Shown here: piece by piece, positions 3,047 to 8,339 of the stretch | Numbering within the stretch: position 1 is the stretch's first letter | Layout: every line of letters starts with the position of its first letter | Source of the DNA: Candidatus Sulfopaludibacter sp. SbA3 | GTDB taxonomy: Bacteria > Pseudomonadota > Alphaproteobacteria > Caulobacterales > Hyphomonadaceae | Length of the DNA: 64,000 nucleotides | Reading direction: 5' to 3' | Assembly (NCBI GenBank): GCA_945888325.1 | Contig: CAMDAC010000003.1 | Location: forward strand, 1-64,000 | Program-made: the position numbers and the translations under genes | Notes under the pieces: model-generated | The model's input: only the letters and a program-made list of their open reading frames with translations | Told to the model about the DNA's origin: nothing | Database searches by the model: none

Positions 3047-4141
<1,095 letters not shown>

Positions 4142-4226: not shown

Positions 4227-4297
4227 CAGAGAACAAAGCAGAAACTTTTTGCCGGAACGTCTTTCCTTCCGGCGTTGTCTCAGGCATAGACCAAGCC

Positions 4298-6860: not shown

Positions 6861-7838
6861 TCAGGGCACCAGCAAGGTCGCCCCGGTCGTCGCGCCGCTT
6901 TCCAGCGCGCGGTGCGCCTCGGCGGCGTCCTTCAGCGCAAAGCGCTGGCCGATATCGGCGCTCAACACACCCTTCTCGATCAGGCTGAAGAGCCGCTTCG
7001 ACGCCCGCGCCAGTGATTCCGGCGTGTCGGTGAAATTGAACAGTGTCGGCCGCGTCATCACCAGCGAGCCGCCGGCAGCCAGCCGCCCCGGCGGGATCGG
7101 ATCGGCCGCGCCGGATGCGTTGCCATAGGTGATGAACCAGCCGCGCGGCCGCAGGCTCGCGAGCGAGGCCTCCGCCGAGATCTTGCCGACGCTGTCATGC
7201 ACCACATCGACGCCCTTGCCATTCGTCAGGGCACGGACCTGTTTGGCCACGTCGTCATAACCGACCACCACCTCGTCCGCGCCGAGCGCTTTCGCGCGCT
7301 CCGCCTTCGCCGCGCTGGATGTGACCGCGATCACCCGCGCGCCGAGATGTTTCGCCCAGGGCGTCAGCAGCGAGCCGACCCCGCCGACCGGCGCCCAGAC
7401 CAGCGCCGTCTCGCCTTTCTGCAGCGGCCGGATTTCCTCCAGAAGCATCCAGGCCGTCATGCCCTTCAGCAGGATCGCAGCGGCCTCCTCGTCGCTGATC
7501 CCGGCGGGCAGCGGCACGACGCCCGCCGCAGGCCCGGTATAGTGCGTCGCATAGGTGCCGCGCCCGGTATAAGCGACCCGGTCGCCCGGCTCCACGTGCA
7601 GCACGCCCTCGCCGACCTCCTCGATCACGCCCGCACCTTCCGACCCCGGAACAAATGGCAGCGGCATCTTGTAGAGGCCCGTCCGGTGATAGGTGTCGAT
7701 GAAGTTCACCCCCACCGCGGTCTGGCGCACCAGCACCTCGCCCGGCCCCGGCGCGCGCGGCGGCGCTGTCTCCACCTGCAACACCTCCGGCCCGCCGGTC
7801 TGGTGCATGCGAATGGCATAGGCATTGGGAAGGGTCAT
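6861..7838 (-). CDS. qor: NADPH:quinone oxidoreductase, zinc-free MDR family
   Basis: This 325-residue medium-chain dehydrogenase/reductase is predicted to reduce quinones or enone-type electrophiles with NADPH. It lacks the zinc-binding cysteines of alcohol dehydrogenases. Family features are VGVNFIDTYHRTGLYKMPLPFVPGSEGAGVI, a nucleotide-binding stretch WAPVGGVGSLLTPWAKHLGA, and the C-terminal HRALESGATTGATLL. The start MTLPNAYAIRMHQTGG (7838) fits the family; the track start is 15 codons longer. The gene is divergent from a VOC gene across an interval containing an SOS box. Confidence 0.88.
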   Translation of the reverse strand: MTLPNAYAIRMHQTGGPEVLQVETAPPRAPGPGEVLVRQTAVGVNFIDTYHRTGLYKMPLPFVPGSEGAGVIEEVGEGVLHVEPGDRVAYTGRGTYATHYTGPAAGVVPLPAGISDEEAAAILLKGMTAWMLLEEIRPLQKGETALVWAPVGGVGSLLTPWAKHLGARVIAVTSSAAKAERAKALGADEVVVGYDDVAKQVRALTNGKGVDVVHDSVGKISAEASLASLRPRGWFITYGNASGAADPIPPGRLAAGGSLVMTRPTLFNFTDTPESLARASKRLFSLIEKGVLSADIGQRFALKDAAEAHRALESGATTGATLLVP

Positions 7839-7930
7839 CTGGCGCTCCATGAACTTTGCGGGATCACCAAGCCGGGACTGCACGGGACTGTCAAATCCCC
7901 GCCTCGCAGCGGACTCGACAAGCGCGAAAA

Positions 7931-7945
7931 GTTCTGCTTTTGTTC
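7931..7945 (+). promoter_or_regulatory. SOS (LexA) box, exact GTTC-N7-GTTC
   Basis: GTTC-TGCTTTT-GTTC matches the alphaproteobacterial LexA consensus at all eight defined positions and has a T-rich spacer like the recA site. It ends 25 nt before the VOC gene start and lies 93 nt upstream of the divergent qor. Confidence 0.65.
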
Positions 7946-7970
7946 GCGTCTCACTGGAGGGAGAAAATCA

Positions 7971-8339
7971 ATGATCGGCTATGTCACCCTGGGCACGCGC
8001 GACCTTGCGCGCGCTTCGAAATTCTATGATGCGATCGCGGCCGAGCTGGGCACTTCGCGCATGTTCACGATGGACAACTTCATTGCCTGGGGCACGCCGG
8101 AGGGCGGCGCGGGCATTGGTGTGGGCTATCCCTATGACGGCAACGCAATGAGCGTCGGCAATGGCGTGATGGTGGCGCTGCAGGCGAAGGACAAGGCGCA
8201 GGTGGACCGCATCTATCATCTCGCCCTCAGCCTGGGCGCGACCGATGAAGGCCCGCCCGGACCGCGCGGCGACACGTTCTACGCGGGCTACTTCCGCGAC
8301 CCCGACGGCAACAAGCTGAACGCCTTCGTGATGGGCTGA
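7971..8339 (+). CDS. VOC family (glyoxalase-like) protein, likely SOS-regulated
   Basis: This 122-residue single-domain vicinal-oxygen-chelate protein begins MIGYVTLGTRDLARASKFYDAI and ends YFRDPDGNKLNAFVMG, the usual strand-helix frame of bacterial glyoxalase-like proteins. The reaction cannot be read from sequence. The ATG at 7971 follows GGAGGGAGAAAATCA. The exact LexA-type box 25 nt upstream suggests induction by DNA damage. Confidence 0.85.
   Translation: MIGYVTLGTRDLARASKFYDAIAAELGTSRMFTMDNFIAWGTPEGGAGIGVGYPYDGNAMSVGNGVMVALQAKDKAQVDRIYHLALSLGATDEGPPGPRGDTFYAGYFRDPDGNKLNAFVMG

Follow-up and report, generated by a model that had tools for sequence, protein, structure and literature searches.

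Known SOS regulons consist mostly of repair, replication and division genes. In Caulobacter crescentus, the SOS regulon governed by LexA includes lexA, recA, ssb, chlI and recN, members that are shared with the genome considered here. Part of this membership is documented in a Caulobacter study, which also describes the operator GTTCN7GTTC and gives GTTCttgttatGTTC as the sequence bound by LexA before two mitomycin-induced SOS genes; its main text contains none of the words glyoxalase, bleomycin and dioxygenase (PMC12700426). Another related system is found in Mycobacterium tuberculosis, where Rv0887c, a glyoxalase/bleomycin-resistance-fold protein of the SigG regulon, has been studied in the DNA-damage response to mitomycin C (PMC3776920). 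Further proteins of this fold, including MRD, which binds mitomycin C, TnmS1 and the bleomycin-binding proteins, occur in antibiotic producers or in resistance loci and not in an SOS regulon. A literature search covering Alphaproteobacteria, with the main Caulobacter regulon study of 2008 outside its reach, returned no glyoxalase or VOC gene under LexA or SOS control, and beyond this class the only damage-linked glyoxalase-fold case retrieved was that of the mycobacterial SigG regulon.

The locus described here lies in a 64,000-nt stretch of alphaproteobacterial DNA (the window) and consists of a VOC/glyoxalase-fold gene preceded by the same operator as in Caulobacter (Table 1). We estimate the probability that this gene truly belongs to the SOS regulon at roughly 0.9, a figure which concerns SOS control and not the ligand of the protein. 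The original prediction placed an exact SOS box 25 nt before the VOC start, and a motif scan of the window finds exactly this: GTTC-TGCTTTT-GTTC on the plus strand, separated by 25 nt from the ATG at 7971. It also named recA as the other promoter candidate in the window, which agrees with a one-mismatch box (4245-4231) before recA and with the intragenic position of the three remaining exact matches. The bare count of the motif in the window shows no significant excess, with four exact matches against 1.8 expected, a number reached in 10 of 100 shuffles.

Table 1. Features of the VOC and recA loci, in window coordinates
Feature	Position	Strand	Basis
LexA (SOS) box GTTCTGCTTTTGTTC	7931..7945	+	exact match; kept before orthologues; lexA preceded by same motif
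-35-like element TCGACA	7915..7920	+	16 nt 5' of box; T-T/C-G conserved there in 86 non-redundant orthologue promoters
-10-like element TTTTGT within box	7938..7943	+	17 nt from -35; position profile of 86 promoters
Ribosome-binding site GGAGGGAG	7956..7963	+	sequence; orthologues purine-rich at equivalent place
VOC/glyoxalase-fold gene, 122 aa	7971..8339	+	Pfam PF00903; coding model; AF2 pLDDT 89.9
Divergent quinone-oxidoreductase-like gene	6861..7838	-	92 nt from box; not conserved beside box
recA	3047..4141	-	Pfam RecA E=2.6e-146; coding model
recA SOS box GTTTCTGCTTTGTTC, one mismatch	4231..4245	-	sequence

The significance of the motif before the VOC gene therefore derives from its conservation and not from its count in the window. 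In Hyphomonadaceae, the family to which the window belongs, exact GTTCN7GTTC precedes 46 of 49 orthologues, mostly 37-47 nt before the ATG, and the sequences flanking the box are otherwise unrelated. The box is exact in 29 of the best 30 of these orthologues, with a single mismatch in the other (L037), and in 17 of 19 readable members of a further, less similar set. Among 80 named genomes, an uneven sample picked by similarity, 67 carry the box, including many Sphingomonadales; the boxed genomes include Hyphomonas, Henriciella, Sphingopyxis, Sandarakinorhabdus, Erythrobacter, Qipengyuania and Brevundimonas, and the named genomes nearest to that of the window mark the latter as a Hyphomonas-like alphaproteobacterium. 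Across the first 110 loci, which pool two sets with some genomes present in both, the motif occurs in 96 of 110 regions of 150 nt upstream of VOC genes versus 17 of 3336 other 150-nt windows from the same loci. The closest VOC paralogue, about 48-55% identical, was boxed in none of 18 cases in the same genomes. On a tree of 110 rows, built on 123 columns and poorly resolved, clustering of the box is strong: a single clade with 93 of the 110 rows takes in every boxed row, and 9 changes are needed versus 41.5 in shuffles. The assignment of a LexA/SOS box to the VOC gene has thus passed the conservation check that was named beforehand, with 46 of 49 family orthologues boxed and the paralogue devoid of the box. 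Sphingopyxis sp. SupBloom_Metag_073, a metagenome bin, has two VOC copies (L047, L074) on separate contigs, and both are boxed.

These comparisons bear on the simplest alternative, namely that GTTCN7GTTC is a chance match or merely a promoter whose -10 region happens to read GTTC. The motif is about as frequent in the window as chance would have it, and its 3' half does overlap the -10 element. However, the 5' GTTC is held at a fixed 7-nt spacer in 46 of 49 family orthologues, which a sigma-70 promoter does not explain, and the paralogue has the box in 0 of 18 cases. Conservation refutes a chance match, and we consider this alternative extremely improbable.

The anatomy of the promoter was read from a position profile of 86 non-redundant promoters aligned on the box, in which the half-sites are invariant by construction, having served to select the set. 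At fixed spacing, positions -16 to -14 before the box prefer T/C and G, corresponding to the TTG of a -35 element, and the preferred core between the half-sites is N-T-G-T-W-A-T. A T directly precedes the box and a C or T directly follows it, while positions elsewhere upstream are near background. The box encloses the -10 element (TWATGT), which is 17 nt from the -35, and so a repressor bound to the box would cover this element. Most orthologues have TWATGT at this place versus TTTTGT in the window, whose box core, TGCTTTT, is less typical and whose -10 is weaker than in most relatives. On this profile, the predicted VOC promoter is a conserved sigma-70-type promoter with an operator overlapping its -10. 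A GTTCN7GTTC operator overlapping the promoter, the arrangement by which the alphaproteobacterial LexA regulon is recognized, is present at this locus.

The surroundings of the gene indicate which transcription unit the operator serves. In the window, the VOC gene forms a unit of its own, with the next gene on the opposite strand, and across the loci compared only 15 of 105 have another gene on the same strand within 80 nt downstream. The upstream neighbor varies between lineages and may be SDR-like, protease-like, aminopeptidase-like or of other kinds. Comparison of the VOC loci yielded no neighbor conserved across lineages, which rules out conserved neighbors as a clue to the role of the protein; the operator and the VOC gene therefore travel together as a unit. 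An operator for the divergent quinone-oxidoreductase-like gene has to be weighed here, as that gene starts on the opposite strand at a distance of 92 nt and a reductase could fit a stress response. However, the distance between box and VOC ATG is kept while the upstream neighbor changes, and a divergent gene of the same cluster lies upstream in about 16 of 110 loci. The quinone-oxidoreductase-like gene is probably not the target of the box, and it is very unlikely that the operator serves this gene and not the VOC gene.

The link to LexA is made through the rest of the genome. A single LexA DNA-binding domain (HTH) is encoded in the genome of the window, and the lexA promoter itself carries the motif. 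In 24 sampled genomes with a VOC box, 23 have the exact motif at most 180 nt upstream of lexA in either orientation. Control of the VOC gene by another regulator with a GTTCN7GTTC site could draw on extra weak LexA-like HTH matches in some genomes, but the single LexA HTH in this genome and the motif before lexA in 23 of 24 genomes leave this explanation barely credible. LexA control of the VOC gene also fits GTTCttgttatGTTC, the Caulobacter box introduced above, which is identical to the VOC boxes of five Hyphomonadaceae orthologues (L017, L018, L020, L030, L035).

Genome-wide, exact matches number 83 versus 61 for the reversed control, a mild enrichment; the listing covers exact matches only, and sites were placed with a gene model that had been trained on the same genome. 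Promoter-placed sites precede lexA, ssb, recN, yifB/chlI, rmuC and photolyase genes, several of which are classical repair genes, as well as PA0069-type radical SAM, MBL-fold and GFA-family genes. The GFA-family gene (glutathione/formaldehyde type; L003:1501-1936, G000:C1:85197-85632) has a reverse SOS box, GTTCATGATTTGTTC, 16 nt before its start; a box also precedes its orthologue in G032 but is missing before that in G022. The MBL-fold protein (L008:1501-2680, G000:C1:318304 on) has 381 aa and a weak match to Avs1a/ComEC models, with the SOS box 19 nt upstream. At L190:1501-1551 (G000:C15:18104-18154), three GTTCN7GTTC motifs, two of them overlapping, are packed into 51 bases before a 111-aa gene without a Pfam match. 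A further SOS box (L178:1501-1780, G000:C9:81537 on) precedes a short open reading frame, MGEYKDDETNGFQSPAQDYIEGVVDL..., which may be frame-disrupted and which we take to resemble the N-terminus of UmuD-like proteins.

The wiring is not uniform within the class. In f174, a family of the same order whose orthologues are 69-79% identical, only one of 11 VOC genes (L273) has the box, at -86, which sets this family apart from the shared Caulobacter-type operator. The box precedes three of eight orthologues in f176 and one of three in f2. In f175 (L278-L285), five of eight VOC genes are preceded by an exact reversed box, often near the ribosome-binding site and start codon, and the other three (L280, L281, L284) read GAACN7GAAT there, which departs from the reversed box by a single mismatch. 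The reversed orientation is also seen before the VOC ATG at a Maricaulis locus (L092). The reversed box of f175 suggests independent wiring. With f174 mostly devoid of the box and f175 carrying it reversed, the wiring is lineage-specific and has been lost or gained more than once. The boxless orthologues of f174, f176 and f2 further imply that LexA control is not needed everywhere for the role of the VOC protein, and that this role is not necessarily connected with DNA damage.

The protein itself matches Pfam Glyoxalase PF00903 (E=3e-7; 31.3 bits, cut-off 20.6), and AlphaFold (AF2) predicts a confident VOC fold (pLDDT 89.9, pTM 0.85). Among solved structures, the VOC proteins 4qb5 and 4z04 are nearest to it in both sequence and fold. 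Foldseek ranks 4qb5 first, followed by 4z04, which is bound to glutathione; we know of no SOS link for either. More distant Foldseek neighbors include the mitomycin-binding MRD (E 5e-8) and the antibiotic-binding TnmS1 (E 8.5e-7), although similarity of this degree is common across the VOC superfamily and is no proof of drug binding. These two and the bleomycin-binding proteins share the fold at about 16-20% identity. Rv0887c is alike in fold and belongs to a sigma factor regulon, whereas the VOC gene has a LexA operator.

Aligned with plant glyoxalase I, the protein has Y4, G50, M67 and N117 at the positions that we take to be metal ligands, and the H/Q-E-H/Q-E ligands of glyoxalase I are absent from this alignment. 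Y4, M67 and N117 do not vary among 19 orthologues, and position 50 is A, C or G in relatives. With the metal-ligand positions lost, the protein is unlikely to carry out the canonical metal-dependent glyoxalase reaction or to be such a glyoxalase. It is plausible that the protein handles reactive or alkylated compounds, and we infer that it would bind a toxic small molecule or carry out metal-free chemistry on one. A tentative alternative is that the protein is not a binder but a metabolic enzyme for electrophiles derived from damage or stress, such as dicarbonyls, base propenals or glutathione adducts. The glutathione in 4z04, the second-best structural match, and the SOS-boxed GFA-family gene in the same genome are consistent with an enzyme of this kind; however, the Y, G/A/C, M and N residues make the known metal-dependent VOC chemistry unlikely, and the GFA gene is present in few species.

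Given the operator, its conservation, the promoter anatomy and the LexA link, all of which are seen in the sequences, SOS control of the VOC gene would proceed as follows. LexA on the GTTCN7GTTC operator, covering spacer and -10 of the sigma-70-type promoter, would block RNA polymerase. RecA-ssDNA would trigger self-cleavage of LexA, and the VOC promoter would open. The small VOC protein would then be made from its single-gene unit; as predicted from sequence, it is very probably made upon DNA damage, with repression and induction presumably following the LexA route. Lacking the glyoxalase metal ligands, the VOC-fold protein would most likely bind a small genotoxic or damage-derived compound, and chemical disarming of that compound is possible. 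Its ligand and role are matters of speculation, and it perhaps mops up a DNA-damaging compound. The full proposal, that a metal-free, LexA-controlled VOC protein captures genotoxic molecules and so protects the cell as a detoxifying branch of the SOS response, wired by more than one operator arrangement (a forward box in Hyphomonadaceae and Sphingomonadales, a reversed one in f175), is rather unlikely as a whole.

The VOC gene would be a newly recognized member of the alphaproteobacterial SOS regulon, with novelty provisional. A clean test system is at hand, since related families hold close orthologues that have the box and others that lack it, and a paralogue devoid of the box is present alongside the gene. 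Conservation of a glyoxalase-fold member of the SOS regulon across several groups of Alphaproteobacteria points to a response that also removes the damaging agent itself.
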